NCBI GenBank assembly: GCA_004335835.1
Contig: RWJK01001676.1
Location: 1 to 64,000, forward strand
DNA from: Scenedesmus sp. ARA3
Taxonomy: Eukaryota > Chlorophyta > Chlorophyceae > Sphaeropleales > Scenedesmaceae
Reading direction: 5' to 3'
Length of the DNA: 64,000 nucleotides
In this document: piece by piece, positions 2,968 to 63,945 of the stretch
How positions within the stretch are numbered: the first letter of the stretch is position 1
How the letters are laid out: every line of letters starts with the position of its first letter
The notes under the pieces: generated by a model
Databases searched by the model: none
Seen by the model: the letters and a program-made list of their open reading frames with translations, nothing else
What the model was told of the DNA's origin: nothing
Made by a program: the position numbers and the translations under genes

Positions 2968-5900
2968 CAAGCAGCTGTGATTACAGCAATTTACAAGTAC
3001 AGCAGACACCATCCCGTGCATGACATTGTCTCACGGCAGCAGCAGCAGCAGCAGTAGCACCAAGAGGAGCAGCAGCAGTCGCTGCAGTTCAGTGCAGGAC
3101 AGCGCCTCAATGCACACATTCTATTGTCTTATGAGTGCTGTCGTTGATTGGAACCTGTGCACACCTGTGTGACGCAGCCGCGCGCGTAGCTGATGTCCCT
3201 GTTGTGCAGCAGCAGCTGGAAGCAGCTGACAGCTGGAGTGCGCCAGCCATACACATCCCACAAAAAACCCAAACAGCATAGCTGGCGACCCAGATTACAA
3301 CCACTGGTCGCTGCAGTTCCGTGCAGGACAACAGCCACGATCGACACATCCATTTGGCATTCCTTCAGTGATAGGGTGCGCTGCCATCAGGTCTAGCCCG
3401 TGCACACCTGTGTGACGTAGCCGCGTGCGTAGCTGATGTCCCCATTGTGCACAAGCAGCTGGAGGCAGCTAGAAATCAGACTGCGCGAGCTATACCCGTC
3501 CGAAACAATAAACTCGATCAGCATTGCTGGCAACCCAGATTACAACCACAGGTCGCCGCAGTTCAGTGCAGGACAGCAGCCACGGTCCACACAATCCTAT
3601 GGCATTCCTTTTAGTGATAGGCTGCGCTGCCATCAAGTGTAACCTGTGCACACCTGTGTGACGTAGCCACGTGCATAGCTGATGTCCCCGTTGTGCACCA
3701 GCAGCTGAAAGTCATGCTGCTGGATGTCCTGCAGCATCCTGCGGCAGCAGCCGCAGCTAGTTAGCAGCCGAGGCGCAGCATCTTGACGCAGCCGAAGCAG
3801 ACACTCTGATGATAGCATGCACGCACTAGCAAACCACTGATGTTGACTTGCAGTACCTGTACTCGACTAGCATCTGCTGCAAAGTTTTGTCCGGATGGTG
3901 TGGTGTTGAGGCTGACCAGCATCTCGGTCTGCTCCATGGAGCCGTCCCCCTCCCCTTGCCCATGTCTGCCGTAATTCGTGTGCATTACACAAGGCAACCG
4001 CAGCTGGCTTTTGTGCATGTGCTGCTGCTGCTGCTGCTGCCCTGGCTGACAGCCCACAATACACTGCCAGGTGCTGCCACCATCCACTGCGTATCACTCT
4101 CATACGCCGGCAGGCCCAATGTGTCAAGCTGGCATCAAGCAGCCTTACCGTGTCGTTGTGTTGAGGCTGACCAGCATCTCACTCTGCTCCATGGAGCCAT
4201 CAACCTCGCCCTGCCCCAGGTCACTGCCCAGAACCTTCAAAAACCACTGAAGCTCGCTACTGTGCAGGTTGTGCTGCTGCTGTTGCTGCTGCCCTGACTG
4301 ACTGACTGCCACACACCACAAGATGCTGTCATCACCCGCTTTTGCATGGCCTTACCAAACTATGTTATAGCCTCAGGTCTGATCAAGCTGGAGTCTTATG
4401 ATTAAAGCCTCACCTTGCTGTGGTGTTGAGGCTGACCAGCATCTCGCTCTGCTCCATGGAGCCATCAACCTCCCCCTGCCCCAGGTCAGCCACTGCCAGC
4501 ACCTTCACACGTGTTTGTGGGCCCACTGGAGGGGCAGCAACAAAAGAGGCCTCAGGCGAGAACCCCCACTCCTGCAAGCAGCAGGCAAGCCACAACAGGT
4601 CAGACACGACGGCTGTTACTGATGACAGAGAGGTCAGCAACTGCCAGCACCTTCACACGTGTTTGTGGGCCCGCTGGAGGAGCAGCAACAAAAGAGGCCT
4701 CAGGCGAAAAGCCCCACTCCTGCAAGCAGCACGTCAGACATGACCGCTGTTTAGTGCTATGCTGGGAAACAGGCGCATACTTTAGCCGCACACACCTTTG
4801 CTGGATCATTAGTTACCCCTGCACAGCACATACTGTACCAACTCACGACCAACTGTACATGTAACAAGCACTGTACAGTACGGTACAGCAAGCTGGTCCC
4901 AGACCGAGCTCATCGCCCAAAACGTCATAGTAGCGTTGACCAGGCATCAAGCCCTCCACAAGAGGCAGCAGGAAACAAGCCACTTGGCCTGCCTAGTGTG
5001 CTAACCCTCTCACCTCATCTCCCACAACTTGAGTACTACTTGTGTGCTACGTTGAATGTAGTAGTCGCGCTGACCAGGGGTCAACCCCTCCACCAGAGCA
5101 TCATGAAACAGGCCTTTGAGCTGCCATGAAAGCAGTCTGTTGTGCTTTCCCCCTCACCTCATCCCCCACAACGTAGTAGTAGCGTTGACCAGGGGTCAAA
5201 CCCTCCACAAGAGCAGCATGGAACAGGCCAGGGTCAACAAACCCAGCATCATTAGCTGGAGGCCCGCAGAGCTCCTGCCTGCTGTATGTGCTGCTGACAG
5301 CTGCAGCGCTGTGGTTGTAGGCTCCTGGAGATGTGCCCCACTTGACTGTGGGGTTGCTGCTGTTCTTGGTGACCCACTGCACCATCATTTGCCTGTGAAA
5401 GGTTGCAGGCACATAATACTTGGTTGTGGGTTTCAGCCAAGGAGTTGCTACAACGATGGCAGATGGCTGCTGCTATGTTGATGGCTGTCATTATTGTCGC
5501 GCTCGTCGGTGCAAGGATACAGGCTACACGTCAGCAGAAGTGCACTCTTGTGCAGCAAGCAGCGCGGCAGCGCAGTATGCAGCTGCAGGGTGCCTACTAC
5601 TACCCCTTCTGGCCCCTCACATGTTATTGCCAGTGAGTCCCGAGTGCAAGGATACAGGTCACACATCAGCAGCAAGCAGCGCGGCTGCGCAGCATAGCAG
5701 CTGTAATCTGCGTACTTGTGTGTTTTAGGTGCTGACAACCCTCACGTGTTATCTCCTGTGAGTGCCAAATGGCGCTGCAGGGGCTCGTTGGGGTTCTGCA
5801 CTCGGATGATTGGGGACAGCGCAGCCAGCTGCGGCGCCATCATGCCGCCCCTGAAGAAGGCAAATTGCATGTCGGACCGGTAGTTGATGAGGCGGAACCT

Positions 5901-6691
5901 GCACCAAAGTTGGCAAGCAGGCAGGCATGTGAGTGTGGCGCAGGCCAGGCAGCAGCACGCTGCTGACGCGGCAGAGAGCATGCCGCACTGCAGGTGTCTG
6001 CAACAGCGCAGCAGCTGAGCGGCTGAACGGTGCGCATAGCCACGACACCTGATGCACAGCTGCAGCTGCCCAGGCTGCTGTTGTGCGCTGCGTCAGGCCG
6101 TACCAAGTGCCTGCACCTGTTTTTGCTGTTGCGGTTCAGGGCAGCAGTAGGTGCATGCCTGAGGTGCAATGCAGCTGGCAGCCAGGAGCTGCTGCGAAGA
6201 GACCATCTCCGATTGCATCAACCCACAGCTGCACAGCAACCTGCTGCCGCATGTGCCCGACCACTGTGCAACTGCAAGGACGATTCAGCTGCTTAACTCT
6301 GCACAAATAACCATCTGCAGGCTTACTTGAGGCGGCCCTCGCCTCTCTTTACGTGGTTCTTGTCCATCGCTGCAATCTGGTACTTTGCAGGAGCAGTCTT
6401 GGTTATGTCTGCTCCTGCAGGCACTATCAATCCTAGCCAGTCTGCATATGATGGCTGCTGTACACCGCTCCAGCTCAGCTCAAACCACTGATGAGAGTGG
6501 CCTGCCTCCAGCACTGTGCTGTTCAAGCGCAACACGATGCTGCTTTCCGGCGCATGCGACGCCGCGTGCAGCTTTATGCGTTCCAACGGGTTGTGTGTCT
6601 CCTGCTGCGATGCGCTGACCCGCATGCAGCTGATGCCCAAGGCACAGACAAGCACCAGCAGCGTCTGCATCCAAGCCATCTTAGGTTGCAT
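817..6691 (-). CDS. Purple acid phosphatase (plant PAP27/PAP24-like)
   Basis: This is a metallophosphoesterase that should hydrolyse phosphate monoesters at acid pH, probably secreted or vacuolar. Ten exons close into one 659-residue frame: 6327-6691, 5746-5898, 5158-5392, 4414-4571, 3654-3738, 2803-2926, 2444-2575, 1813-2000, 1411-1686 and 817-1080. The N terminus is a signal peptide (MAWMQTLLVLVCALGISC). An N-terminal Ib-type domain and a fibronectin-like segment (MMVQWVTKNSSNP) follow. All five PAP metal motifs are visible: ADLG, GDISYA, GNHERD, VGGH and GHHHSY. The C-terminal PAP domain (WGYLRIEAS..) ends in a 13-residue polyGln tail encoded by CAG repeats, which is unusual for the family. 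Length matches plant PAP24/27. Exons 2-5 have tandem partial copies in the adjacent introns. The start is the first Met of a clear signal peptide, with a second Met four codons on. The divergent neighbour starts about 1 kb away. Confidence 0.94.
3168..3738 (-). repeat. Exon-fragment array, phosphatase exon 5 (GDISYA exon)
   Basis: The intact exon (3654-3738) is followed downstream by two diverged copies at about 3407-3470 and 3168-3230, with a period of about 240 bp. Each keeps the sequence coding LLVHNGDISYARG..VTQ and the splice donor, but lacks the exon's 5' half and acceptor. Confidence 0.85.
3903..4722 (-). repeat. Exon-fragment array, phosphatase exon 4 (DLG exon)
   Basis: The intact exon is 4414-4571. 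Two 3' fragments with donor, coding DGSMEQxEMLVSLNTT, lie downstream at about 4158-4220 and 3903-3960. One 5' fragment with acceptor lies upstream at about 4640-4722. The latter is nearly identical to the exon, so it is recent. Confidence 0.85.
4903..5392 (-). repeat. Exon-fragment array, phosphatase exon 3
   Basis: The intact exon (5158-5392) is followed downstream by two copies of its last ~80 bp, coding HAALVEGLTPGQRYYYVVG and including the donor, at about 5030-5105 and 4903-4975. A smaller fragment of exon 2 lies near 5612-5640. Confidence 0.8.
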
Positions 6692-12644: not shown

Positions 12645-15360
12645 ATGTTTGCTCGACAGCAGCATCTGGCTGCTCGCAGAGGCTCCGCACGACACCCATG
12701 TGCGCTGCTGTCGTGTACAACAGCTCAACCATGCATAGCAGCAGCAGATCTCGCTAGGAATAGGACAAGACGGTGTTATGTCAAGTGCCGAGGGGCCATG
12801 ACGGAGCAGCAGAGCACTGCTGCTTCTGCTGCGCCATGGGCAGTTCCGTTGCTTGCGGTGAGAGCAAACAGCCAGCACTGCAGGATCGTCATTGCAAAGC
12901 TCTGGCCGTTGTACTCATTCGTTTATTATGCTGCAGGGAGCCTTGCTTACAGCAGCACAGGCAGCCCCAGCATGGGCTAGCAGTGAGCTGCTATCAACTG
13001 CCAGCAGGTATGTGTGCCCCAGCAGCTGCCTGGCAACCTGCTGAGCAGCAAACACACAAGTATCTTTTTCATTTTGCTTGATGCTTCCGGCAGGAGCTGT
13101 TGCTGATGCGCTAATGGCAATGTGGCCCATGCACCCCATGACCCTACAACACCCCCCACTGCGCCTGCTCCATTTGCTGCTCCCATGTTGCAGCCAAGCG
13201 CCTGCAGCACTGCAGCAGGAGCACAGCATGCAGCAGCACATGCAGCAGCTGCCAAACGCTCCACAGCTGACGTCAGAGCCCCAGCAGCAGCTTTTCTGCA
13301 AGCAGCAGCAGGTGCAGGAGCTGTTTCAAGTGGGCGAGGGCCGCACGCACTGGCTCCTGCAAGTGCTGGGCATCGGCGTGGTCAACATCCTGGGGCTGTG
13401 GGCAGTGCTCAAGGTCCTGCAGATCAGCAAGGACAGTGAGTGGCATTTGCTCATAGGCGGTGACTTCCTCTGCTGAGCAGCATCAGCAGCAACATGCATG
13501 TCAAAGTCAAAGTGCTGCAGATCAGCAAGGACAGTGAGTCGCATTTTCTTATAGGTCATGGCTGTTCAGGCTAGCAGTGCAGCACAGCAGCATGCCTTGC
13601 AGAGCTCGCAGCAGCTGTGTTTAGGTATACAAGCGCAGCTGTCCGTGGTGGGCTCTGGTGTGGATGGATGCGGGATGCTAGCAGTACCTGCACTGGCTCC
13701 TGCAAGTGCTGGGCATTGGCGTGGTCGGCATCCTGGGGCTTTGGGCTGTTTTGAAGGTTCTGCAGATCAGCAAAGACAGTGAGTCGCATGTTTTCAGCTG
13801 GGATGCTTTGCAGCATGCCCTGCAATATGCACAGCAGTTGTAGTAGATGTCCAGTTGCAGCTGTCTTGCAACGGTGGGCTTTGGTGCAAGTGCTGGGCAT
13901 AGGCGTGGTCAACATCCTGGGGCTGTGGGCGGTGCTGGAAGTGCTGCAGATCAGCAAGGACAGTGAGTGGCAAGTAGCAGTAGTACTACTAGTAGCGAGC
14001 TTGCAAATTGATGTATCACTCCCAGGAGCGCTGCTATGACTGTGGTGGTCTTTCATAGGCCGTGGCTTCAAGGCAGCAGTTCTGCGCAGCATGCGCTGCT
14101 GAGTGCTCAGCAGTCGCAAGATGTATCCAGGCGCAGCTGTCCACCATGGGCAGTGTGGAGTGTGACAATGATACTGCAGTACTAGCAAGTGATATATCAG
14201 TTGCGCAGCAAAGGTTGTTGACTGCTTCACTCTGCTTCCCTGCCACAGCTGCCAGGCTTTTACCCTGTTTTTGTTGTCACCCTAACGCTGGCCGCACTCG
14301 CTGTGCTTGCTGATGTGCCATGCTGCCTGTGCCTCATCTGTTTGTGCATCTGCCTCCGCTTCTGTGCTGCAGCGAGCACGCCTGTGACGGTGCTGCGGGT
14401 GCATGCGGGGCTGCGCGTGGAGGGGCGCCAGCTGCAGGAGCGGCTGCACTTCCTGCAGGGCATGCTGCCAGTGGAGCACGGCATGTTCTTCAGCCTGGAA
14501 GGTGGGCTGAAGTTTTGCTTTTATGGGCACATGCTGGTCCCAAATTTTGGCTGCACTTTTTGCAGGACATGCTGCCTGTGGAGCACGGCATGTTCTTCCT
14601 GCTGGAGGGTGAGCTGAGATTGTCTTGAACGGTTTTGCTGCAATTACATTGCACAAGGGTGCGCTTGGTATGAAATAGAACTGGGGTGCATGCCAGCAGC
14701 ATAACAGCGGCAGTGTTATGGGCGCTGCTGCCAGCTTCGGTTGGGGCGCGCTGCATTTCCTGCTGTGGAACACCCTCAGAGCTTGGCTGACTCTTGCCTC
14801 GCGGAATGCTGCTGTAATGATTGTGCAGAAGCCATCCAGCTGCTGTGCAACCCGCCACGCGGCACCCAGTTGGCATATGCTGACCTGGCAGTTAAACCCC
14901 TGAGCTCCAAGTTGGACGGGTGAGCCATAGCTGCAGCATGTTGCTGAATGGACCTGCAGATGAGGGAGTCGGAGCAAAAAACTCACGGCGTTTGCAGTCT
15001 GCATGCTGTACGTGCAGCATGTGCCGTGTTATGCTCCTTAGATGCCAGCGTTCTAATGCTTTATAAATCAGCTACGGCTTGCTGGTGGTTGGGAAAGTGA
15101 TTGTACCCAGCAAACGTATGCTGACCTGGCGCTCACACCGTTGAGCTCCAAGCTGGATGGGTGAGCATGACCAGAGCGATGACAGACATGGCAGACGTGC
15201 TGCTGGGTTCTTCTGCAGAAAAGGGTTCTGGCACGCTTGCAATGCAGCTCATGCCGTAAGGGTTGTATATTCAAGGGTTTTTCCAGCAGCCAGCGTTCTT
15301 GCCATATGGCGCGTGACATGCCAGCTGCCGTTGCTGCTGCGGTGGCTGCTAAATGTTTTG

Positions 15361-15392
<32 letters not shown>

Positions 15393-15810
15393 AGCTATGA
15401 CCTGTTCAAGAAGTACGCTGCTGCCGAGCAGGAGACAGCCATCGCAGAGGAGGCCAGCCACGTGCAGCACGGCAGCAGGCCAGCAGCTCCGCAGCACAGG
15501 AACACTCTGCAGCGCCTGATGGGAGGTGCGCCTAGGCTCATGTCTTTCGTAGGAATGGTGATGTGTATAGGATCAGTCAGTCTGCTGTCATTTTTCGCCT
15601 GCAGCACAAGTAACACGCTGCAGCGCCCGATGGGAGGTGCGGCCTGGCTGTTGCTGCACAGCGGATGTTTGTGTTTGGTGTCACTTGATTTGCGCTGCAG
15701 CAGCAGGAAGGCTGGCTGCGCGTGCATGCTATCTGTTTATGCTGCTGCGTGCTGGTAGCATCTCCAGTTTCTGTCTATATGTCGTCTCGGGTAGTTATAT
15801 GTAATCCTTA

Positions 15811-15845
<35 letters not shown>

Positions 15846-16683
15846 CAGCCGCTGAGACGCAGGACGTTGAGGAGAGCACCAGCTGCGTGGTGGTGACGCT
15901 GGTGATGCTGGCTGAGGGCACAGTCAGCATGCCAAGTGATGTCATCAGGGACGTGCAGACCTTCAAGAACGCCATGAAGCAGGTGCGTGGACTGATTGCG
16001 GATGCCACGGCTGCCGGATGATGATGTGTATGGTTGTGATTGTTTTGGCAGCATGAGCATGCCTTTTACACGCACATGCCTTCTTGCCTGTGCCAGTCTC
16101 CAGCTGTGCGTGGGCCTGCGCAGCAGGCAGCTGCTGGCAGTGGAGCTGCTGCTAGCTTACTACGTGGCCATTGCAAGCACCAAATCCTGCGCTGCTGTGT
16201 CTTTCTACCTGTGCCATGTCTGCAGCTGTGTGGTGGGCTGCGCTCTGGTCAGCTGCTGGCAGTGGAGCTGCTGATGACGCCTGACGACCCAGCTGACTTC
16301 CTCTCTGAGGCGCAGCTGCAGGAGGTGAGGCAGCATTACTGAAAGTAGTCGCCATTGAGTGTTGATATGGGGCTTGCTTGCGCAAGTATGGTGGCTGAAG
16401 GCCCTGCAATTTCTTGTCTGAGCGCAACTGCAGGCGGTGAGGCAGGATTTTGTGCAGCAGCAGCAGCAGCACGCTGAAGTTGTCAATGTTGGCATGCTTG
16501 GAGCGGGATCTGGTTTGATCTGCTCTTTGTGGTGTGGTCTGCTGCTGCTGCTGCTGCTGCCACTTGCAGGACTACCCCTTCTTCACCGATCTGCAGACAG
16601 GCAAGCGGCTGGACGCACTGCGGCAGCAGGCACCACAGCAGGGCGGTGCGGGCAGCAGCGCAGCTGCACCTGCGGGCGCTTGA
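12645..16683 (+). CDS. DUF1517 protein, probably plastid-targeted (FLAP1-like family)
   Basis: Nine exons close into 432 residues: 12645-12857, 12937-12982, 13094-13435, 14373-14501, 14829-14919, 15395-15525, 15849-15982, 16226-16324 and 16570-16683. The N terminus is Arg/Ser/Ala-rich, like a transit peptide, with a second Ala-rich stretch (LLTAAQAAPAWAS). A hydrophobic helix (residues ~175-195, VLGIGVVNILGLWAVLKVL) precedes the conserved region. The C-terminal half carries the DUF1517 signatures CVVVTLVMLAEG, RSGQLLAVELLMTP and DYPFFTDL. In this cyanobacterial/plastid family, plant FLAP1 is linked to acclimation to fluctuating light. Extending that role to this gene is inference. Exons 3, 4, 5, 6, 8 and 9 have partial tandem copies. 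The first 71 codons are the least certain part. Confidence 0.85.
13352..13975 (+). repeat. Exon-fragment array, DUF1517 exon 3 (membrane helix)
   Basis: The 3' part of exon 3 with its donor recurs downstream at about 13512-13535 (short), 13689-13780 and 13885-13970. The two long copies keep the same reading frame through the hydrophobic helix and differ from the exon mostly at codon third positions. Replacements are N to G in one copy and K to E in the other. Confidence 0.88.
14440..15640 (+). repeat. 3' fragments of DUF1517 exons 4, 5 and 6
   Basis: Each of three consecutive exons is followed by one copy of its 3' end plus donor: exon 4 at about 14561-14609 (MLPVEHGMFF), exon 5 at about 15105-15162 (YADLA..PLSSKLDG) and exon 6 at about 15605-15636 (NTLQR.MGG). 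Confidence 0.85.
16093..16324 (+). repeat. 5' fragment of DUF1517 exon 8
   Basis: A copy of the acceptor and first ~55 bp of exon 8, coding LCVGLRSRQLLAVELL, lies upstream of the intact exon at about 16093-16152. It follows the opposite polarity to the 3' fragments of exons 3-6. Confidence 0.82.
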
Positions 16684-18552: not shown

Positions 18553-21500
18553 ATGCGTGCTTCTTTTGCGTTGAGCAACAGGCTCAGCGGAAACAGCTCA
18601 GCGATCCACGCTAGACGCGCCAGCTCACGTTCAGCCGATCAAACAGTGAGAGCCATGGCAAACGCAGCCGGAGACCTTTATCCGCATGGCCTGAAAAGCT
18701 TAAGCCCAGGTGCGACGTGCAGTACATACGCTGCGTGGCATGGATGCATGGATACAACATCAGCAGCAGCAGTGGCAGCAGCAGCAGCAGGAGCAGGAGC
18801 ATCAGAGGCAGTGCATTTGCAGCACCACAACAGTAACTAGAATATGAAGTATGGTACAGTGAAGCATGCACGTGGCGTTTATATTGGAGTGGTTGCATAG
18901 CTGTTGCATAGTATGAGCTCCATGATGCAGGCACATCATGTGTGCTGCACCTGCCGCACCGGCGCTGCTGCTGCTGCATGCCAGCCCCCTGACACCCTTG
19001 AGCTAGTAATAGCCATGCAAAGCCCATGGCACTGCCACTCATGCCCCTTGTGGTGCTGAACACATTCGCTGCGCTCCTGTCACTGCTGTCCCATCCTGCA
19101 AACTCCCGGTCACAGCCACAACAGTAGAGAAGACGCTGCAGCGGCTAGGCAGCAAGTTTGAGGTTGTGCCTCTGCCTGGGGACTCTGCCTTTGTGCGGCC
19201 AGCCTCCATCCTGTATGAACTTGATGGTGAGCTGCATGTAACGAAGGCCAGCTGTATGAACTTGATTAAAATTATGCAAGTGTGGATGCTGCTCCATGAC
19301 GCTTAGTCTGTAACACTGCTGCTGCCGCTGCTGCTATTGCTGGTGGTTGTACTGCTGCTGCTGTTGCCGTCCTGCAGGCAAGCAGCGGCGTTGGGACATC
19401 ATCCAGGCGCACTCCAGCGTGGCATGCGTGCTGTACCACAGCGACATGGATGCGTTTTTAGTGGTGAGCAGCAGCTGTGCTGCAGCTGCTGGCTGTGTGT
19501 TTGCTGCCTGTGCGCACCTGCTGTGTATATTGAGGTTGTGGCGTGCGTGCTGTGCCATGCTGACATGCACGTGTTCCTGGTGGTGAGCAGCAGCTGTTGA
19601 CAGCACTATTGCGTTTTGCACGTAAGCAGTCTACATGCAAGCAAGCTAGCGCAGCGGTAGGTAAACAAACCAGGTTAGCTGTGTGTGTGCTGCCTGTGTT
19701 GAACCTGCTGTGTGTGTGCTCAGGGCACGGCATGCGTGCTGTGTGTTTGCTGCCTGTGCAAACGTGCTGTGTGTGCGTTGAGGGCTTGGGATTTAGCCTG
19801 CTGCCGTGTTTGCTGCTGATGTGGCTGTTCACCCCTGCTGGCTGCTGCTGGTCCTGCTGCTGCTGCTGCTGCTGCTGCTGCAGGTGAGGCAGTTCTGGCC
19901 TGCAGTGTACGTGCTTGTGGGCTTAGGGTTCAGCCTGCTGCGCCGTGTGTTCTCACCTGTACTGACGGCTGCTGCTGCTGGACGTGTGCTGCTGTAGGTG
20001 CGGCAGTTCAGGCCTGCAGTGTACGCGCACAGGCTGCGGGAAGCAGCAGCAGATGGCAAGCCAGCACCAGACAGGACGGCAGGTGGGCTGTTGCAAATCC
20101 GGCCATGGTGCTGCATAATATCAGTTGTAGTTATAGTTGGAAACCCACTCGCATGCCACACCTACCATGCAGCTGATCATCGCACGATTGTTGCATGCAG
20201 CTGGGGATGCTATACCATAGCACCAGACAGCACCGCAGGTGTGCAGGGTCTCTGGCATGCACCAAGCACTGAGTTTTGTACACTGCTGCTGCTGCTGCTG
20301 CTGCTGTTGCGCAGGCTTCACCATTGAGCTGTGTGCCGGGCTTGTAGACAAGGCCAAGAGCCTGTCGCAGATTGTGGTGGAGGAGATCCATGAAGAGGTG
20401 AGGGCAGTACAACCAGGCAGTACAAGTTGGCAGTACAGTCAGGCAGTACATGTACTGACGGTACAGTAAGGCAGTGCAGTCCGGCAGTACATGCAGGCAG
20501 CACAACCAGGAAGCACAGCCAGGCAGTACATGTCAGCAGCAGCTTGCCACAGATAGTGGTGGAGGAGACCTACGAAGAGGTCAGGGCAGTACAGGCAGGC
20601 ATTACAATGATAGTACAGACAGGCGGTACAGGCAGGCAGTACAATGATAGTACAGGCAGGCGGTACAGGCAGGCAGTACAACCAGGAAGCGCAGTCATGC
20701 AGTACATGCAAGCAGCAGCCTGCCACAGATAGTGGTGAAGGAGATGCACGAAGTGGTGAGGCCAGAACAGCCAGGCAGTACAGCCAGGCAGTACAGTCAG
20801 GCAGTACAATCAGGCAGCACAGTCAGGCAGTAAATGCCAGCAGCAGCCTGCCACAGATAGTGATGGAGGAGATACATAAAGATGTGAGAGCAGTACATGA
20901 CAGTACAGCCAAGCATCACATGCAAGCAGCACATGCAGGCAGCAAGTGCCAGGCGGCACCAGTGCATGAAATGATTTGCCCGCCGAGTCTGATCATTTGG
21001 TGTGAGGCAGCATCACTGGATCGACTTGCATTAGCTGCTTTTTTCTTAATCAAACAGTTTATGTTGGTGTAATTATGTCACTCATACGCAAATGTGGCTG
21101 TGCTGCAGGTGGGCTATGACGTGTCAGTGGAGGACGTGCGCCAGGTGTCAGCAGCGGTGGCAGCAGCAGGCAACAACGGCGCCATCAGCTCCATGTTCTA
21201 TGCACAGGTGCGGCGCATTGGTTCGGCCAGCAGGCTTGGTGAATAGAGGCCTAGTGGTTGGCTTACACCATGTTCTACGCACAAGTGCGGCCTGGCTGGC
21301 TCAGCTAATCTGAGGTTTGGCGCGGTGTGAGGAAGGCAGCAGCAGCAACAGCAGCTGCAGTGCTGCTGCATTACCATGCCTGCTTCGTGGCAGCAACTGC
21401 ACCGTGTGGCCCTGGAAAGCGCATTGGCAGCAGCACGCGCGTCAGCATAGCAGCCACGTGGGCACTGCCCTATGTACAATATGAACTTACCCTCGTTTGC

Positions 21501-22071: not shown

Positions 22072-22330
22072 GCCTGATTGAGGGGCTAAATCTGGGTTCT
22101 GTGCTGCCTGTTTGAGGCATGATGGTTGGTTAAATGCAAGTCTGTTTGTGCAGCCCCTGGTGCTGCGGGGTGGAGCATGGGGCTCATGTTTGGGCTGCTG
22201 TGGGCGCACAATGCGCTGCTGAGTGGCGAGCTGCCTGGGCGTGCTGCAAGCATGGAGGGCGGGACTTTATATTTGAAGGCGACTGCTGAGGGTGATGCCC
22301 TGGAGCTGAAGTCTGTGCTGCCCTCACGAG
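21683..22330 (+). repeat. Fragments of Nudix terminal exon on both sides
   Basis: The intact terminal exon is 21793-22071. A 5' fragment (coding the SKRxNAGGGL region) lies upstream at about 21683-21730. A 3' fragment of ~150 bp, coding MGLMFGLLWAHNALLSGELP and onward, lies downstream at about 22175-22330. A small exon 6 fragment lies at 21268-21288. Confidence 0.85.
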
Positions 22331-23700: not shown

Positions 23701-23719
23701 GCATCAGCTAAAGGCATAT

Positions 23720-46549: not shown

Positions 46550-48154
46550 TCACGCCTGCTGTGTGAGATGCTGCCAGGTGTGCAGCACAAAGCCCTCCAC
46601 TGCCTGCAGCAACTGCTGCTGCCGTCCTGCAAACCAGTGATCAGCGCCCTCCACTTCAACCAGCTGCGATCCTGCAAGCACAATGGCAGCCAGCAGCAGA
46701 TGTGGACACCCGCGATGGGTGCGTGTCATGCAGCAGCAGCAAAGGTGATGTGCAGGCAGTTGAAGCTCCCCTAAGCGTTGTGCTGTCAACTGCTGTGTGG
46801 GTTTGCAGGTGCCGTGCTGGCTGCCAGCTGTGCTGCATCTGTCTCTTCATGACGCTGTATATCCATACAACCCAGCAGACACCGGTTGACATATGCATCG
46901 CAGGAATCATTTGGCAGCCGAGAGACAGGGCCCAGGCCCCGCGGCGGGTGGCATGTGTGTGCAACCGCCATGATGTTATGCATGATACCAGGACCTGCAT
47001 CCACACACTTTGCTCAGGACATCAAACCGTATGCTGACCAGCACCCCACCTGCAATGCTGCCTGCCAGCTGCACTATTACTCAAAGCTTCACAGGTGGGG
47101 TCGCAGGCGCCATGCAGCACCAGCACACGGACCGCAACCATACCTGTTCCTGCCCATGAAACTATGTCCTTGCACGCCCTCAAACGCAAACCACCATTCA
47201 CCCCACCTGCTATGCTGGCTGCCAGCTGTGCCGCATCCGAAGCTTCAAAAATCGGGTCGCAGGCGCCGTGCAGCAGCAGCACACGGACAGCAACAAGACC
47301 TGTCCCTGCCCTTGAACAAGATACTAGCGCCCCTTCCATCGCAAACCCCCATTCACCCGATTTGCGATGCTGCCTGCCAGCTGTGCTGCATCTGATGCTT
47401 ACACATGCGCGCCGTTGCTGCATGCGTCCATATATACACAAATACCAACCAAGTCCAACAACCCCACCTGCTATGTCGCCTGCCAGCTGTGCTGCATCTG
47501 ACGCTTCACAGATCGGGTCACAGGCGCCATGCAGCACCAGCACTGACGGCCGCGGCTGCCGGGTGCTGATGCGGCTACATGCCCCTGCAACATCCAGGGA
47601 GAAGCGCTCCTCCATTTCCTGCAGGCACACACCACACACAGCAGGGCATTAAGGCATCTGCAAGTACTGAGCAAAAAACATGCTCCTCCTCCACCCAGCT
47701 CATACATGCTGTGTTGCCGCCGCCCTGCTTGTGTGTTTCCAAATGCAGTCTACTTGCAGTCTACTGGCATGCTCCCGCCACCTTCAGGCAGAAGCGCCCT
47801 CCATCCCTGTGGACACAACCACGTGCAGCAGAGCATACATGCTCCAGGCATGTTGGCTGTAGGCTGCTGTTTGGTGGCTGCTGACAGCGTTACATGGCCA
47901 AGCATGCACTACTAGACACGGCATGGCATGGCCGTGTTCAAGCATGCAAGCAGCGGACCAGTGCTGCTGTGAGCATGCCATGCACGAATCCGTCAAGGGC
48001 GCATGCATGCTCTTAAGGTATGCAACAGCTCCAGTGGTGAACTCACTTCCGCAGTCAGCTGCCAGTGTATGGCTGCCCTGTCCCCGTCCCGCTTGGCCAC
48101 CTGCTGCCATGGGCCACTGTCCCGCAGCTGCTGCAGCACATCAGGGCCATACCT

Positions 48155-48203
<49 letters not shown>

Positions 48204-49464
48204 CAGCAGCAGCACATCTGGACCGTACCTGCATGCATGAGTGTGCAGGGCAGGTGCCTATAGGCGGCTCCAAGGGCTGCTGCAGTTTGCGAGGCACTCG
48301 GGGGGTACCGATGTCTGGCTAAGGAAGCGTTGCTCAGCAGGCGGTGCATGTGCTGCTTACATGTCCAAGGTTGTGCACGATGTACATGTCTGACCTTATG
48401 AAAGCCACCACTGCCTCTGTGTGACAACTGTACTCGAGAGGTCCGTAGCAACATGCATGCACCAAAGCAGCATACTCATGACGCTACAGCAAGTTGTGAC
48501 TGGCCGCCGCAATGCTGCGTCAACAGCACGCATGCTCTGGTGCATATGCACACCTGGTGCTTGCATATCACACACGGCAAGTGCGGTCTCCAAGGTCATG
48601 CGAAGTGCAGCAAGATGACAATGCCATGCCATGCACTATGGTCAACAAGCACTGATGCGTTGTACACACACCTCTGCACCATGTTGAGTGTCAGGTCGAA
48701 CCGCCCTGCCACCAGCACCATCATCGTGATGTCCCCACGCTGCCCTCCATACAGCGTGGCATTGATCGCACCCCGGCTGTGGCCTGCAGCAGTGTGCCAG
48801 CCGCAGCCAGCAACCGCAAACAGCAGGCTTCACAATCATGACTGTTACTAACAGCTAGGCAGGCCCTGCGGGCATTGCGGTTGGGACGCCAGGAAGTGCC
48901 CATTGCTAAATCATGTGTTGCGGTTTCTAGAGGCAGCAGCTGCCGAGGTGGCACAGAGTAGAAGCAGAGCTGGCAGCATCAGCTGCATGCCTCCTGCTGC
49001 CTTGGCCACTCACCCAGCAGCAGCACGACCTGCTTGTCATGCTGCTGCTCCAAGAAAGCCTTGGCAGCAGCCATCTGCTCCACTTCCTGCAAGCAGCAGC
49101 GGCAGCAGATGGTGTGGCCGCCAGTGCACGCTACCGGTTTACCATACAATGCTGCTGGATGTCGCTAAATGCCAAACCGGCTCTCATGATGGGGTTTGAG
49201 GCCAAATTTGCCCGCTGCCACTCTTGCCATGTTGGATGTGCCAACCAGTCCATGGCCATGTGCCAGGGCGGACGTCCTGACACGAGTCAGCAAACATGCT
49301 CACCTGCATGAAGTCTCCAAATTCAATCCAGTCCAAATCCAATCCAAATCCAAATCCAAACCAATCAAATCTGCTCACCTGCATGAAGCCGCCAAACCTG
49401 AAGGCGCCGCTGCTGTCCATGTTTCCTGCATAGTCAAAGCGCAGGCTGCTCTGCACGCAGGGGT

Positions 49465-49524
<60 letters not shown>

Positions 49525-49574
49525 NNNNNNNNNNNNNNNNNNNNNNNNNNNNNNNNNNNNNNNNNNNNNNNNNN

Positions 49575-49630
<56 letters not shown>

Positions 49631-50051
49631 CATGTGGTGAGGGATTTTGCAGAGACCTTTAGTAGGCAAGCAAGCCACTGCAACCCGGTGCATGTTGTGC
49701 CACAAACAAATTTCTTCTGCTCCTCTTGTCAGTTTAAGCATCATGGCAGTACCTGACCGCTACACCAGATCATGCTGCCTGTTTCTGCTTGGTCATTCAG
49801 CCGGCATGTTGCACAGTGTCTCTTGCAGATTTATGACATGGTGCTGCTCTCTCCATCGCTCTGTGCGGGCAGTGCCACAGCTGAAACCCCAATAGTCAGT
49901 GCCTGCTGTCTATGAGTGCCAGCCGTTTCGGCGCTGCGCACCATGCCAAGCCGTGTAGCCAAGTGCGCTGCTATTGCAGGAAAGTGGAAGCCGTTCTTGT
50001 GGGACGCGAAGCCATGACACAGGATGGCGCAGTGCTGCGCAGTGAAAGGCG

Positions 50052-50083
<32 letters not shown>

Positions 50084-50208
50084 TCTGCAGGTGCTGCTGC
50101 TTCTGAGGGCGGTGCTGCTGCAGCACCTGCTGCTGGCTCAGTCAAGATGCCTGCTAGGGTTTCACCGCATGGGCTGCTGAACGTCACAGGTGTCTCCTGC
50201 AGCAGCAT
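46550..50208 (-). CDS. Alpha/beta hydrolase, serine esterase-type
   Basis: Seven exons close into 300 residues: 49942-50208, 49379-49450, 49014-49086, 48672-48783, 48047-48152, 47468-47618 and 46550-46671. The fold landmarks are in order: CHGFASHKNGFHF (oxyanion-loop HG), LRFDYAGNMDSSGAFRFG, nucleophile elbow GHSRGA (Ser about residue 119), VLVLHGACDP (acid Asp) and GADHWF (His). The triad therefore looks complete. The pattern FDYxGNxxSxGxFxFG is shared with plant and bacterial serine-hydrolase esterases of unknown substrate. A polyAla/Pro insert (residues ~20-45, GCT/GCA repeats) lies between strand 1 and the HG loop. The start at 50208 is the first ATG; the frame is open slightly further upstream. 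Exons 2, 5 and 6 have fragment copies. Confidence 0.88.
47040..47815 (-). repeat. Hydrolase exon 6 (acid Asp) fragment array
   Basis: The intact exon is 47468-47618. 3' fragments coding VLxLHGACDPxxEASDAAQL lie downstream at about 47205-47290 and 47040-47115, with a shorter one near 47345-47400. A 5' fragment lies upstream at about 47770-47815. Confidence 0.85.
48160..48232. repeat. (CAG)n tract at hydrolase exon 5 acceptor
   Basis: About 14 CAG units on the plus strand, which are CTG on the sense strand, lie just upstream of the exon 5 acceptor. They separate it from a 5' exon fragment coding YGPDVL at 48210-48232. Confidence 0.8.
49465..49627. repeat. Long (CAG)n tract broken by an assembly gap
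   Basis: About 20 CAG units, 50 N (49525-49574) and about 18 further CAG units lie in hydrolase intron 1, ending near the exon 2 acceptor on the sense strand. The true length is at least 38 units and is unknown. It is the longest triplet tract in the window. Confidence 0.93.
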
Positions 50209-57269: not shown

Positions 57270-58429
57270 AGCCGCTACGAGCTGCGCCAGCTCCTTGGAG
57301 CAGTTGCGCACCACGCCAGCGCAGCATGCTTGAGCCAAACTTACAGCTAGTGCAGCATGTTCTGCGCTACTGTCGGGCGCCCATCAGCATTAAACACGCG
57401 TGCACCAAACTCCAGCAGCTCCTTGGAGCAGTCGCGTCTAGGCCGCCAGACACAGCATTGCTTGAAGGTGCGCAGCTTTGCTTTTTTCATGTTAGACGTT
57501 CCATAATACAAGCCAGCTCAGCACACTCTGGCCCGCTGCCCAGCTGCTGGATCAGCAGACTCTTCCCAAGTCCCCAACGAGCCAGCTACTGCAGCTTGCA
57601 ATGCGACCTGGCTTGGCAGGGCCCCCCAGCCGGCCAGCGTGGCAAAATTTTCATCAGTGCAGCAAAAACCTCAGTTGGCCCAAGCCGCAGCCTGGTCTAT
57701 GCCGCTGCTGGCTTGGCAGGTGGCTGCAGGCGGCCAGCGTGATAAACTTTTCATCAGTGCAGCATGTTCTGAGCAACCGGCGGCCGCCCATTTGCATTGC
57801 TGACGCGCACCCCAAACTCCAGCAGCTCCTTGGAGCAGCGCTGCGACAGCCAGCCATGGAATAGCCAGCGCTACACCCTCTGCGCTTCTGCAAAGCTGCG
57901 GTTTTTTGTTGTAAAAAACCCCAGTTGGCCCAAGCCGCAGCCGGGCTTATGCAGCTGCTGGCTTGGCAGGTGGCTGCAGGCGGCCAGCGTAATAAACTTC
58001 TCAATCAGTGCAGCATATTCTGCGCCACAGGTGGCCGCCCATTTGCATTGCTGACGCGTGCCCCAAACTCCAGCAGCTCCTTGGAGCAGTCGTGTGTATC
58101 CAGCTGCCGGTGCGGCAGGAGGCCCCAGGACACCATCAGCGCAGCATGATATGCGCTACTCTGCGCCACTGCGCAGCAGCAGACTTGGTGGGGTGCCACA
58201 GCCAGCGCCTGCCACAGCCGACTCATCAGTGCAGCATGTTCTGCGCCACAGGTGGCCGCCCATTTGCATTGCTGACGCGTGCCCCAAACTCCAGCAGCTC
58301 CTTGGAGCAGTCGTGTGTATCCAGCTGCAGCTCAATGAAGCACACGTGGTCGGTCTTGTCTTTGAGAGCTGTCTGCAGCGCGGCGATAAGCTCCGGCTCT
58401 GTGGCTGCCTTGACAGCGTACAGCTTGCC
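57270..58429 (-). repeat. PDC terminal-exon array, 3' copies
   Basis: The intact exon is 58226-58429. 3' copies coding [20 protein letters not shown] lie downstream at about 58008-58095, 57768-57838 and 57345-57440, with a shorter one at 57270-57310. A ~90-bp spacer (GGCTTGGCAGGTGGCTGCAGG..) is repeated with them near 57590, 57700 and 57950. A 5' copy with acceptor lies upstream at about 58565-58690. Confidence 0.87.
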
Positions 58430-61400
58430 CTGCAGGCGCAGCAATATTATAGCACGCAGGTGGTCGCCCGATGGAGTTACTGGTTTGCTTGATTGGCAGC
58501 AGGATGGTCTTGATGAAGGCAGGCAGGAAGGAAGGCAGGCAGGCAGGCAGGCAGGCACAGCACTGAGTGTGTCCAGCTGCAGCTCGATGAAGCACACGTG
58601 TTCCTGCTTCTCATTCATGATCAGCGCTGTCTGCAGCGCGGCAATGAGCTCCGGCTCTGTTGCGGCCTTGACAGCATACAGCTTGCCCTGTGGCGTGATA
58701 CGCGGTGTGCAGACAGTGCACCAGGCAGTAAGACAGGCAAGCAGTGCGGCAGGCGTACAGGCAGTACATCAGGCAGCACAGCAGGCATTTCAGCAGGCAG
58801 GCAGTACATGAAGCAGCACATGCCTGCATGGCATCTGCGTTCAAGCTTCGTGCCCGCAACGTGTTACCCTGCTTACGCATTCATGTTTCTGGTGATACTT
58901 GCAGCCTCAGCGCAGCTGTCGGGTTTGTCACCATGCTGCTTGGCTACTTGATTTTCTATGCACGGCTGCATGAACCCCAGGAAGGCAAATCGAGGGCCTC
59001 AGGCCTGTCACTCACGCTGCCGTTGTGCAGTGCCTTGACCATGCCCACGTAGTCCCAGTTCTGGATCATGTTGTACGGGCCTGCGAATGCGATGGGCACA
59101 TCACAGCAGCAGCAAAAAAAAGCAGCAGCAGCAGCGGCAGTGGCAGCAATGACAAGTTGCGGTTTATGTGGTAGCCTGCGAATGCGCAATGCATGTAAGG
59201 CCCTTGCCGCCAGCAGCGAACATACAGAAGCTAATCACTGGCCAGTCAAAAAGCATGCTGCCAAGGCAGCAGCAGCAGCAGCGCTAACAACATCACCGCT
59301 GCGTCTCACCGTCATGGATCTCTATCTCTATGGTGTAGCCCTTGTTGTTCATGAGCAGGATGATGGGCGTGGCGCCAAAGCGGATCATGCTGCTCACATC
59401 CTGCGGTGCACAAGGTTTGCGGCGTGCCGGGAAGCACACGCAGCCGGACAGACAGGCTGTCTGTTGTACACGCTTGTTGTAGGAACAGAACACAGGCAGG
59501 AAGCACACAGTGCAAGTGCCAGGTGCACGTCAACTACACAATGTACACTCATGCACATGTATTGTAGAAAACAGTAGCCGTGGCCTCACACGCACTCACC
59601 TGTGCAGTCATCTGGAACGAGCCGTCCTTGATCATGCTGATCAGCCGCTTTCCCTCAGCAGCAGCGCCCAGGCTGTAGCCCAATAAACACCTGCTCTGTC
59701 ATCTGTTACACACCTGCTCTGTCATCTGTTACACACCTGCTCTGTCATCTGTTACACACCTGCTCTGTCATCTGTTACACACCTGCTCTGTCATCTGTTA
59801 CACACCTGCTCTGTCATCTGTTACACACCTGCTCTGTCATCTGTTACACACCTGCTCTGTCATCTGTTACACACCTGCTCTGTCATCTGTTACACACCTG
59901 CTCTGTCATCTGTTACACACCTGCTCTGTCATCTGTTACACACCTGCGCTATCATCATTGACCCACACCCTTCTGCCGTCACCTGGGACACACATGTGTC
60001 ATCATTTCGGCTACCCACTCCAACCCTGCTGTCAACCGGGACACACCAACGTCACCACCTGAGACACGCACCTGTGCGGTCATCTGGAAGGAGCCGTCCC
60101 CGATCATGCTGATCAGCCGCTTGCCGTCAGCAGCAGCGCCCAAGCTGTAGCCCAAGGTGGCCCCAACACTCCAGCCGATGCTGCCGTAGCGCATCTGCAC
60201 CTCAAACCCTGAACCCTTGGGCAGGTTGAGCTTGAGCGCGTTGAACCAGGAGTCACCAGTCTCGGCGAGGATGCAGGTGTCTGGGGTCAAGCACTCCTGC
60301 AATCAAAGCAGTGCAGCAGCAGTGCGGCATGGTTGGCTGAGCAAGCAGTAGGTTGAGTTTGAGGGCGTTGAACCAGGAGTCACCTGTATCGGCCAGGATG
60401 CAAGTGTTTGTTGTCAGGCACTCCTGCAAGCAGAGCAGCGTGGACCACAGCAGTGCGGCGAGGTTGTTGAGCGGCATAGGGTGTTAGGGTGTTGAAGCAG
60501 CTGTCGCCTTTCCGTGCAGGGACGCAGGTGTCTGGGGCGATGAACTCTTAGCTTACTTGCGAGATGCAGGGCTGCCTGGCAGTCAGTTACTCGCTCACGT
60601 GCCAGTAACTGAGCTCACCTGCACCCGCCGGATCATGTTTGTTGTCGTCAGCTAGCGTGTCTGCATGCTGCCCCTAACATAACAAACAGCCGCCCCACCA
60701 ACCCGCACGCAGCGGATCATGTTGGCTGTGGTGAGTAGCTCCGCGTCCAACATGTCTGCAGGCTGCCCCTAACAAACACACAGCAAGTGAACGTACCTGC
60801 ACGCGACGGATCATGTTTGCCGTGGTCAGCGGCTCTGCTGCGTCGAGGGTGTCGGCCCGTTCCAGCCGCCTGCTGGGGTGCACCATGCGCCTGAAGTTGG
60901 TGATGGAAGCTGCATTTGGGGACACAACCTTGGCCAGAGCACTCAGGTAGTCCTGCAGGGATCAAAACAAGGATAGAACGGAACGCGTACAAAACAATTT
61001 TCGTCAGCGCCGCAAGTGTGTGATGAATGCTGGGTTGGGGGACACCAGCTGCAGCTTCAAGTTGGCCAGCCAAGACAGGTAGTCCTGCAGTGCATGCTTT
61101 AACAAAAGGGTGCAGAAGCAATGCATATGTGACTACTAATCAACAACAGCATGGCCAACAAGACTGATGCAAGGCAGGTTTGCCCCACCTCTTACATATG
61201 ATGCAAGCCCTGCCACCTGTTGGGTACTTGTGCCTCTTACAGATGCCTTGCGCAAAGTATGCTCACCACCTACTTGGTGTAGAAGCCATAAAAAGTTGTG
61301 TGGCGCATCTCACCTCAATCTCGACGCAGCCGAATGTCTCCCCTCCCTTGACAGTGACCCGGCGCTGGTCCACATCAATGAGCTTCTCCGGCTTGAGCAG

Positions 61401-63945
61401 CAGGCTGTAGCCCTGGTGGCAGCAGCAGCAGCAGCAGGTGACAGCAGCAGCAACAGTTGTCAGACACGGCAGCTGGCAGCAATGCCGTTGAAGCAGGGTG
61501 AGCAGCAGCATTGGACATACGCAGCAGCCGCTAGCAGTGGCATTGCACCACCTTGAACAGCAACAGCAGCAGCAGCAGCAGCAGCAGTAGTCGCAGCATG
61601 CGCATGCATACACCCAAGCTCTGGGCAGCGGCAGTGGTTGCAGCAAGTATCACAGCAGCAGGCGCACCGACCCTTGCTGCATGAAGCGCACAGACAGTAC
61701 CACACACAACGATGCCTTCAGGCAGTGCCAGCAGTGATACAGGCAAAACAGCTTTGTGCCCTCACCAGTGTGCTGTAGTCTGTGCGCACAAAGCCGACAG
61801 CAATGACAGTGCCACACACAGCATTGGATGTGTGCAAAGTAAGCGCGGGCACCCTTTACAAAAGAAATAATGTGCTGTGCCAGCAGTAGCACAGGCACAA
61901 CACTGTTGTGTTGTCACCAGTGTGCCGTAATTTGTGCGCATAAAGCCACATCAATATAACACCATAATGTGCGCTGCCACCATCGATAGAAGCAGCAGCG
62001 TGGTGTAGTGTAGCAGACTACTTGCCAGTGTGCTGTAGTCGGTGCGCACGAAGCCCACCGCAATGACCACGTCAGCACCCTCCACAGTCTCATTGCAGCC
62101 CTCGGAGCTGATGCTGCCCCAGTAGTGGCCTGCAGCAGCAGCAGCAGCGGCAGCAGCAGCAGCAGCAGCAGCAGCAGTGGTTATCTGGTGACACATACAC
62201 TTCTCAGGTCACGGAGGTCATGGTCACCATATAACCTCCTTCTATAGTGCCGCCATCCCGTGCCAGCCTAAACCGCACAGCTCTCAGTGACTGACGTACG
62301 CAGGGGCTGACGGCACATAGACGCCATACTCTACACAACATACAACACTGCACTACATTTGCTCTCACCGATGTAGCTGGGGTGGTCTTCCGGGAACATC
62401 CCCTTTGCGTCAGCAGTCACAGCCACAGCGCAGCCCATCATCAGCAACATGTCACCAACACAACCCACAGTCATACAGGCCACGATCTTACCTATGTAAT
62501 TAGGGTGGTCCTCAGGGAACATGCCCTTTGCGTCAGCAGTCACAGCCACAGCACAGCCCAGCGCGTCAGCCAGCGCCAGAAAAGCCGCCTGGCGGCTGCC
62601 GGCCCTCAAGCGTGGCCCGCCCAGCAGCACCGGCTTCACCGCTGCCGCCAGCACCTGGCGAAGTGAACCAAACAGCAGATTCAGCGGCACAGCACGGTGC
62701 ACAGCAGTTAGGCAGCAGCAAGCACTCATTCAAGCACACACACAGACAGAAGTGCACATTTGGCCAGCAGGAAGGCAGCCCAGCGCATCAGCCAGCGCCA
62801 GAAAAGCCGCCTGGCGGCCGCCGGCCCTAAGGCGCGGCCCGCCCAGCAGCACCGGCTTGACTGCACTGGCCAGCACCTGGTGAAACAGACCGTAGAAAAG
62901 TCAGCGGCCCGGCCCGGCACACAGCAGGTTGGTCAGGCAGCGGCCGGGAGGCATGCAGCCTTCAAGGCAGACAAAGATGGCCGACGAATTGCCACAGGCA
63001 GGCAGATCAGCATGCAGCCAGCGCCAGAAAGGCTGCCTGGCGGCTGCCGGCCCTGAGGCGCGGCCCGCCCAGCAGCACCGGCTTCACTGCTGTTGTCAGC
63101 ACCTAGTCTACAGCCGAGATAAGTAACATATAAGCATGCAATGCATGCGTGACAACTGCCTTTCAGCCGCCTGCTACCTTGTTGCTGGCCTCCACTGCCT
63201 CTGCCAGGGAGTGGGCGTTGGTGCTGAGCAGCGTTGGGTTCATGGGGATGGGTGGCACGGTGAAGGAGGGGTGTGACAGGCCGGCAAGGTTGCAGCAGAT
63301 CTCGATGTAGGCGGGCTTCTTTTGCTTCTGCAAGGGTGAGGGTGCAGCAGTAGAAAGCATTAGACACATATATATGACAGGCAAGACACTCACCATGCGT
63401 AAAACTGCCTGATCACAAGCCAGTTGGAACATGCAGGTTAGCCTTGTTCGATTAGGGTCGTGAAGCAGCTTTGCTAGATGGTGACCAAGACTATGAACTG
63501 GCCCTGCTCTGTGACTGCTGCCTTGAATGCTGCACGGATGCAGCCAACACCGCTGCTGACAGCCGTGGGACCTAACCTCCCCCAGCACTCCTAAATCCCA
63601 TGCAGCGGCAATACTGAACCCCGCCCACCAGTGCCTCGCTAATTGCATAGTCGATCTGGTGGTGGGCCTGTGCCAGGTGCTGAACCACCACCGCAGCACA
63701 TGTCACCTCCTTGAATGCCCTGCAAGCAGCAGATACAGTGAACAGAAACACAACCTTGTCTTTGTCTGCAGGTGGCTTGATTAGACTAACAGCTGCAGAT
63801 CTGCGTGCAAAAACATGCACATGACGGCATGTGCGCAGCATCTGTGCTATGGCTTGCAAGCACTTCTGCAACATATGGGTAGCTGCGTTGGCGCTGCTTT
63901 GTCAGGAAATACTCTGCATAACACTGCTGCTGCTGCTGCTGCTGG

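Follow-up and report, generated by a model that had tools for sequence, protein, structure and literature searches.

Partial copies of exon ends flank the exons of unrelated genes in a contig of the green alga Scenedesmus sp. ARA3

In a 64,000-nucleotide stretch of DNA from the green alga Scenedesmus sp. ARA3 (assembly GCA_004335835.1, contig RWJK01001676.1, positions 1 to 64,000; referred to below as the window), the exons of unrelated genes are accompanied by partial copies of themselves, which lie in the adjacent introns or 3' flanks. The copies probably arise at the DNA level, by recurrent local duplication of segments that run from inside an exon across its edge into the adjoining intron. 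The pattern had been put forward by a sequence-only reading of the same DNA, which named nine unrelated genes with exon fragments in neighbouring introns, and it proved to be real: eight of the nine were modelled, and exon edges are involved in 50 of 61 repeat families.

The window covers 64 kb of a 123,776-base contig, in an assembly of 87.3 Mb and 1567 contigs. Judging by its protein matches, it is nuclear DNA of Tetradesmus obliquus or of a very close strain, since the pyruvate decarboxylase (PDC) is 99.3-99.7% identical to T. obliquus proteins and the PDC, hydrolase, GST and SDR genes match the T. obliquus records OEZ85_000852, 855, 856 and 858. The real exons of six of the eight modelled window genes are 96-99.7% identical to T. 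obliquus proteins, and the sole match of the Nudix gene is a Scenedesmus sp. record (86%). Gene models were obtained with a spliced protein-to-DNA aligner written for the task, using proteins of T. obliquus or its near relatives as references; these were predicted or transcript-type proteins, rather than RNA reads of the strain. The modelled set comprises purple acid phosphatase (PAP), DUF1517, Nudix, SDR, subtilase, GST, hydrolase and PDC, with MYND2 left out, as well as a PDC paralog located on another contig (79 exons in total); the nine genes in the counts below are these eight and the paralog. The intact exons join into full open reading frames, as had been proposed, although the subtilase model, the weakest one, needs many indels to do so (581/676 codons, 22 indel events). 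One region was translated in six frames and scanned against Pfam, with one weak match to subtilase as the only outcome.

Self-comparison of the window with microsatellites masked yielded 179 alignments, of which, counted by eye, 4 are inverted and 1 joins distant loci; all the remaining ones are in direct orientation, at distances below 1.5 kb. Within the nine genes, 124 alignments pair an exon with non-coding DNA, including 15 that are exon-internal, and another 121 join two non-coding pieces, many of them copy to copy. The alignments that include an exon end obey one rule: copies of the 5' part lie upstream of the exon (52/52) and copies of the 3' part lie downstream (57/57). None of the 124 is a whole-exon copy. 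Similarly, all 122 alignments between coding sequence and the non-coding DNA of the same gene are direct, with none inverted and none spanning an exon-exon junction. The earlier description of diverged partial copies in adjacent introns thus stands as regards their partial nature, with the correction that the side on which a copy lies is set by the end that was copied.

Such copies accompany 39 of the 79 exons. Both ends are copied in 18, the 5' end only in 6, the 3' end only in 15 and neither in 40, so that copying of both ends occurs more often than expected (odds ratio 8.0, p = 1.4e-4). Of the 12,147 coding bases, 29.9% have a copy with an identity of 80% or more, and 16.6% of the 35,156 intron bases are recognisably exon-derived. 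The distance of a copy from its exon is mostly 85-270 bp, and repeat offsets in the window and in other loci concentrate at 100-150 and 225-275 bp. Many families consist of a single copy, while subtilase exon 4 and some others form head-to-tail arrays; subtilase exon 4 has 12 upstream partial copies (13 rows when the real exon is included). Splice dinucleotides are largely kept. Among upstream copies the acceptor AG is present in 19 of 23 (internal acceptors, the first exon apart), and among downstream donor copies GT or GC in 23 of 27, six more downstream copies belonging to last exons, which have no donor. Many copies include the splice dinucleotide and a few further intron bases.

The link to exons is stronger than chance placement gives. 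When the exon map was rotated within each gene 1000 times, 28.5 ± 2.9 families touched an exon edge (maximum 37), compared with the 50 of 61 observed. That exon copies stay recognisable for longer was allowed for by simulation: 2400 tandem duplications were placed at random in these gene structures, only the protein-preserving ones were retained, and the sequences were evolved and searched in a similar way. Families without any coding sequence made up 52% of those simulated (659/1274 detected), and 57% at each of three score thresholds in a second run, the first run having been scored more strictly than the search of the real genes. The observed figure is 7/61; the refuting case named in the sequence-only reading, equally frequent duplication of introns without exons, is therefore not borne out in these nine genes.

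Three further measures depart from the simulation. Differences between copy and exon fall at third codon positions in 65% of cases (71/65/250 by codon position in 57 copies, a phase warning for subtilase exon 8 affecting one copy) compared with 43% simulated. Divergence is 5.4% at positions 1 and 2 and 19.8% at position 3, and the third-position share rises with similarity, from 49% in copies below 80% identity to 78% in those with 92% or more. AT-biased decay was considered as the source of this excess and is ruled out by the symmetry of the third-position changes (GC/AT, 93 vs 86). The copied part never exceeds 0.72 of the exon (0/57, vs 24% simulated), and at least 30 nucleotides (nt) of the exon remain uncopied in all 57 copies, whereas uniform breakpoints would leave a mean of 13/57 below 25 nt. 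Finally, homology ends near the exon edge, the reach into the intron being 22 nt or less in 27/43 masked (eight genes) and 36/55 unmasked cases, vs 29% in the simulation. Random neutral tandem duplication combined with a splicing filter thus fails on four measures: exon bias, third-position excess, the uncopied remainder of at least 30 nt, and homology ending near the exon edge.

These four failures suggest a process initiated in exons, which requires some tens of bases of exon homology and uses a synonymously diverged template. We suggest that DNA breaks in exons are repaired by synthesis that overruns the exon edge, perhaps on a diverged allele, and that the products are tolerated since only the complete exon has both splice sites; we put the probability of this explanation at about 0.47, slightly short of even odds. 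A break would occur inside an exon, and one broken end would invade a diverged allele, in which only the exon is similar enough to pair. Copying would then proceed past the exon edge into the intron before end-joining to the other broken end, so that the old exon end would be left stranded in the intron. Some copies may later amplify as ordinary tandem arrays and then decay. By established splicing rules a partial copy, having one splice site, is not usable as an exon and leaves the protein unchanged, whereas duplications of a whole exon or within an exon would be selected away. The geometry results from any local duplication that leaves one exon intact. Break repair primed on the exon of a diverged allele would account for all four measures on which the neutral model fails, and the scarcity of intron-only copies would reflect introns too different to prime.

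Several observations are in line with exon-initiated break repair. No copy of the spacer is detectable beyond the exon copy at 18 of the 43 edges described below, and both edges of one exon tend to be copied together, as stated above. By our arithmetic, the third-position difference of about 0.10 that remains after decay would be the divergence of the template. Amino-acid differences between the window and other T. obliquus records reach 3-4%, so diverged lineages do exist.

Other observations weigh against it. The spacer comparison covered 43 edges in eight genes. Fourteen were left out of the comparison itself as the copies abut or overlap the repeat of their exon, which indicates that the intron was duplicated along with it. 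Among the others, duplication of the spacer is clear at 6 edges (z of 4 or more) and borderline at 5, and none is detectable at 18. Hence 20 of the 43 look like plain tandem duplication including intron. Taken alone, about half of the edges are well explained in this manner, and at the remaining ones the old introns may simply have decayed. The term 'stutter' used in the sequence-only reading accordingly fits the 20 tandem-like edges and not the 18 whose spacers have no detectable copy on the far side. The diverged allele would be the template on the basis of one strain's DNA, and among 108 amino-acid differences in the copies (subtilase left out) just 4 match a residue of another T. obliquus record. 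Splitting of the exon by its 5' and 3' copies into near-complementary parts, as if an exon had been inserted into itself, looks striking in the PDC paralog but is not significant over 18 exons (p = 0.08 to 0.41). No clear partial copy was seen at 13 aldehyde-dehydrogenase matches, these being the ones scored out of 62 candidates. Local direct repeats occupy 15-42% of each window segment, compared with 7.2% of 179,157 bases elsewhere (20 other stretches, range 0-27%, six with none, one adjoining the window), so that the high density proposed earlier holds in the window and is not uniform across the genome. The simulation, moreover, models a single event per gene on shuffled unmasked sequence, with the indel rate fixed and gene conversion absent.

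Copies also occur at other loci. The PDC paralog has its own set, and for the one exon compared the copies are 85-90% identical to the exon of their own gene and 79-82% to that of the paralog. The chaperonin family has 72 matches in the genome, spread over 11 contigs, and three of these loci were taken, two for their overlapping matches and one for non-overlapping matches. Direct and inverted local repeats at these loci number 54:1, 8:0 and 32:3, and the copy geometry, read by eye, was the same wherever exon matches made reading possible. The telomere-type 9-mers CCCTAAACC and GGTTTAGGG are over-represented, with 6 occurrences vs 0.2 expected in the window and the adjoining 10 kb, and 10 vs 0.4 in the other loci. 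As candidate marks of break repair they were set aside, just one being found between a copy and its exon.

Unbiased short tandem duplication, occurring everywhere, with splicing removing the harmful products and exon-edge copies staying recognisable for longer through their conserved partner, has several points in its favour: the geometry and the lack of whole-exon copies follow directly, the clustering of offsets in the window and other loci suits it, and so do the 20 tandem-like edges and some clear arrays. The four simulated measures speak against it and it is already disfavoured, leaving it rather unlikely, though a serious contender. Intron gain through tandem duplication of an AGGT-bearing exon segment, with the piece between becoming an intron, likewise predicts partial exon copies inside introns, as outlined in PMC4974935 and PMC2891723. 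In that model, however, a copy of the downstream exon stands at the start of the intron and a copy of the upstream exon at its end. PDC introns 2, 3, 6, 7, 10, 11 and 13, read wholly or partly, show the opposite order, each copy lying nearest its own exon. Moreover, PDC and its paralog have seven intron positions in common, with the same phase, and for the one exon compared the copies are closer to that of their own gene, so that those introns are probably older than the copies and not as young as the duplications. Intron gain is disfavoured for the introns shared by the two genes, and in general we find it barely credible. The return of exon pieces to the genome as complementary DNA would agree with the copies ending near exon edges (36/55 reach 22 nt or less into the intron), but none of the 122 alignments spans an exon-exon junction, none is inverted, and many copies extend through the splice dinucleotide and a few bases further into the intron; RNA-mediated copying is effectively refuted. 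Insertion of introners or transposons was rejected as well, since just one of the 179 window self-alignments links distant loci; matches of an array query on other contigs are short, 30-55 bases, and are probably CAG runs.

An assembly artefact, such as collapsed or misjoined haplotypes in a short-read assembly, deserves separate mention, because mixed haplotypes would give third-position differences and unalignable spacers, and because the assembly comprises 1567 contigs and has an N gap within the subtilase array. This is very improbable, as dozens of misjoins would all have to follow one strict geometry, and proteins predicted in records of multi-megabase contigs show the same copies in the same places. 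Four copies appear as exons in P0121, a predicted SDR protein of T. obliquus from a 3.9-Mb contig, with 63 of 66 residues equal to the window copies; the GST protein P0125 contains one copy as an exon (31/32 residues identical), and the PDC protein P0002 has a mini-exon derived from a copy (4/4). The concern that the copies might be created by assembly is answered by these proteins, predicted from other assemblies of T. obliquus. The start motif of SDR exon 4 occurs five times in the predicted protein P0122 (record set OEZ86) and twice in P0121, while the window holds the exon and one upstream copy; on this predicted-protein evidence, copy number seems to vary within T. obliquus.

The earlier suggestion that the copies are tolerated or useful fares less well in its second half. 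If they were kept for a function, they could provide decoy splice sites, switches for unproductive splicing, or redundant alternative ends of exons under coding constraint. The third-position excess, strongest in the most similar copies, would be expected in that case, as would the kept splice dinucleotides (19/23 acceptors, 23/27 donors), and public gene models include some of the copies as predicted exons. On the other hand, copies are found at 39 of the 79 exons, in unrelated genes. Changes confined to a single copy are distributed 7/7/7 by codon position in the subtilase array, which is neutral, though they amount to 44/45/85 over 15 families, and 91 of the 108 amino-acid differences correspond to no residue in the small set of homologs compared. 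As judged by eye, an in-frame stop closely follows the break in most upstream subtilase copies, and one copy reads on. Of 19 gaps in 50 exon-only copies, 16 are not multiples of three, the alignments possibly holding up to 25 non-exon bases. Between assemblies, the copies differ at 4 of 102 residues and the real exons at 7 of 1105, in a hand count from which four mis-modelled SDR start codons were dropped and whose small sample is biased to copies predicted as exons. The SDR copies are also omitted in the proteins of three relatives, one of them transcript-type. A function for the copies is, in our view, improbable.

The closest known kind of process is short tandem duplication by break repair. 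Fill-in at DNA breaks produces small tandem duplications (Schimmel 2021, PMC8355091), and in both cases repair yields local direct duplications, direct orientation being found here in 122/122 alignments; the abstract of that study names neither an exon preference nor a diverged template. For each of the other kinds, namely tandem duplication of whole exons, intron gain, retrocopies and mobile elements, a defining feature that was tested is absent here. Tandem exon duplication, including mutually exclusive exons, is alike in that an exon is repeated beside itself within one gene, often without annotation; as outlined in PMC9013439, it concerns whole exons with both splice sites, used alternatively, whereas all copies found here are partial, with no whole exon among the 124 alignments. 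The proportion of exonic bases having, in their own gene, a homolog with 80% identity or more is given as about 2% in human, 0.08% in fly and 0.06% in worm (Ivanov and Pervouchine 2022, PMC9013439). The corresponding 29.9% was obtained by a related, non-identical method on nine selected genes, of which eight come from a region rich in repeats. In intron gain in a potato RdRp gene, as outlined in PMC4974935, the duplicated segment also crosses an intron-exon border and leaves exon sequence in the intron, but there a new intron is formed, while here existing introns receive copies, in the opposite order. Seven apomorphic Drosophila introns have been attributed to partial exon duplication (PMC2891723), compared with 39 of 79 exons bearing copies here. 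Minisatellite arrays share the head-to-tail repetition of a single unit with some families, such as that of subtilase exon 4, whereas many families are single-copy. In the literature searched (titles and abstract openings, with subscription papers mostly outside), no exon-edge copies are described in Tetradesmus, Scenedesmus or green algae, nor was a strict tie to exon ends at such density found.

The modelled genes of the window and the copies belonging to each are listed in Table 1.

Table 1. Modelled genes of the window and partial copies of their exons; 5' and 3' refer to the part of the exon copied.
Feature	Position	Strand	Remark
PAP gene, 10 coding exons	820..6691	-	spliced alignment to P0145, 643/649 codons identical
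PAP exon 5 3' copy, downstream of exon 3654-3738	3078..3461	-	self alignment, 80%
PAP exon 4 3', two copies downstream (3896-3970, 4141-4239)	3896..4239	-	87-88% identical
PAP exon 4 5' copy, upstream of exon 4414-4571	4631..4731	-	95% over 101 nt
PAP exon 3 3' copy, downstream of exon 5158-5392	4909..5114	-	self alignment
DUF1517 gene, 9 coding exons	12798..16680	+	spliced alignment to P0148, 334/347 codons
DUF1517 exon 3 3', three copies downstream of exon 13194-13435	13507..13975	+	
DUF1517 exon 4 3' copy, downstream	14549..14617	+	87%
DUF1517 exon 5 3' copy, downstream	15117..15166	+	84%
DUF1517 exon 6 3' copy, downstream	15601..15649	+	86%
DUF1517 exon 8 5' copy, upstream of exon 16226-16324	16087..16151	+	83%
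DUF1517 exon 8 3' copy, downstream	16411..16449	+	85%
DUF1517 last exon 3' end, copy array past stop codon	16698..17040	+	
Nudix gene, 7 coding exons	18553..22068	+	spliced alignment to P0147 (Scenedesmus sp.) and transcript-type record P0150
Nudix exon 3 3' copy, downstream	19538..19597	+	80%
Nudix exon 5 3', copy array downstream	20541..20944	+	
Nudix exon 7 5' copy, upstream	21688..21722	+	86%
Nudix last exon 3' copy, downstream	22173..22343	+	84% over 173 nt
SDR gene, 6 coding exons	25053..30966	-	P0121, P0123, P0124, P0128; exon 1 5' border more likely 30947 (19 nt inward)
SDR last exon 3' copies, downstream of exon 25053-25223	23718..24962	-	
SDR exon 5 3' copies, downstream of exon 27272-27405	26352..27200	-	outer ones joined via intermediate copies only
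SDR exon 4 3', two copies downstream	27507..27717	-	87-89%
SDR exon 4 5' copy, upstream	28109..28208	-	87%; partly predicted as exon in P0121
SDR exon 2 5', three copies upstream of exon 29136-29234	29274..29588	-	92-95%; two predicted as exons in P0121
SDR exon 1 3' copies, downstream	30305..30655	-	P0121 has predicted exon 30655-30611
SDR exon 1 5', copy array upstream	31006..31737	-	
Subtilase gene, 8 modelled exons	33765..39381	-	P0126
Subtilase exon 8 5' copy, upstream	34546..34638	-	81%
Subtilase exon 7 3' copy, downstream	34878..34931	-	81%
Subtilase exon 4 5', 12 copies upstream of exon 36215-36414	36445..37829	-	
GST gene, 5 coding exons	41871..45392	-	P0125, P0129, P0130
GST last exon 3' copies, past stop codon	41017..41833	-	
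GST exon 5 5' copies, upstream	42113..42856	-	
GST exon 4 3' copy, downstream of exon 43199-43359	42967..43080	-	92% over 114 nt
GST exon 4 5' copies, upstream	43522..43855	-	P0125 has predicted exon 43629-43534
Alpha/beta hydrolase gene, 7 coding exons	46553..50208	-	P0193, 290/296 codons
Hydrolase exon 6 3' copies, downstream	47042..47405	-	
Hydrolase exon 6 5' copy, upstream	47768..47836	-	76%
PDC gene, window part of 14 exons reaching 65803 on same contig	58229..64000	-	P0001, 568/572 whole codons identical
PDC last exon 3' copies, past stop codon	57349..58107	-	nearest 99% identical
PDC exon 14 5' copy, upstream	58567..58690	-	third codon positions 13/15 of differences
PDC exon 11 3' copy, downstream	59593..59683	-	91%
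PDC exon 11 5' copy, upstream	60350..60509	-	78%
PDC exon 10 3' copies, downstream	60603..60744	-	
PDC exon 8 3' copies, downstream	61722..61955	-	61779-61766 predicted as exon in P0002
PDC exon 7 3' copy, downstream of exon 62492-62654	62363..62437	-	88%
PDC exon 7 5', two copies upstream	62776..63107	-	

Some features of individual genes may be added. The modelled intron following PDC exon 8 (62129-62026) has a GC donor (CTG/GCAAGT), and the copy ending at 61766 has GT. In PDC intron 11 a 23-bp minisatellite (59687-59956, about 11.7 copies, 99% matches) lies between exon 11 and its 3' copy. A CAGTACAG-type minisatellite is present both in the Nudix array (20483-20541) and near the last exon of PDC (58760-58818), and these two form the sole repeat pair linking distant loci in the window. 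The SDR region contains imperfect palindromes of about 80 bp at 30035-30114 and 30655-30735, seen as minus-strand self alignments. The N gap of the subtilase exon 4 array lies, by eye, inside one of the copies. CAG/CTG trinucleotide runs are very common throughout the window, often right before 3' splice sites (CTGCTG...CAG), and also stand between neighbouring units in the arrays of the subtilase and of PDC exon 4. A tRNA-Asp (GTC) gene (45955-46028, minus strand) is located in the interval from GST to hydrolase, and the stretch where MYND2 may be contains a duplication with a 211-bp period (55871-56340, 87% in self alignment).

The public predicted proteins of T. obliquus named above (P0121, P0122, P0125 and P0002) contain partial exon copies as probable false exons, which implies that annotations of this species may hold many spurious in-frame insertions; such corruption is relevant as T. 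obliquus is a production alga. The copies would also offer a natural test of the way in which splicing distinguishes a complete exon among numerous near-identical decoys, and the large number of dated events would make the mechanism of short tandem duplication readable. A bolder view would be that the alga has a distinct repair route, primed by exon homology between diverged alleles, through which introns grow from exons and keep fragments of past alleles; this we consider doubtful, though by no means far-fetched. If the pattern were true genome-wide, a large share of intron growth would come from the genome's own exons, far above what has been reported for human, fly and worm.

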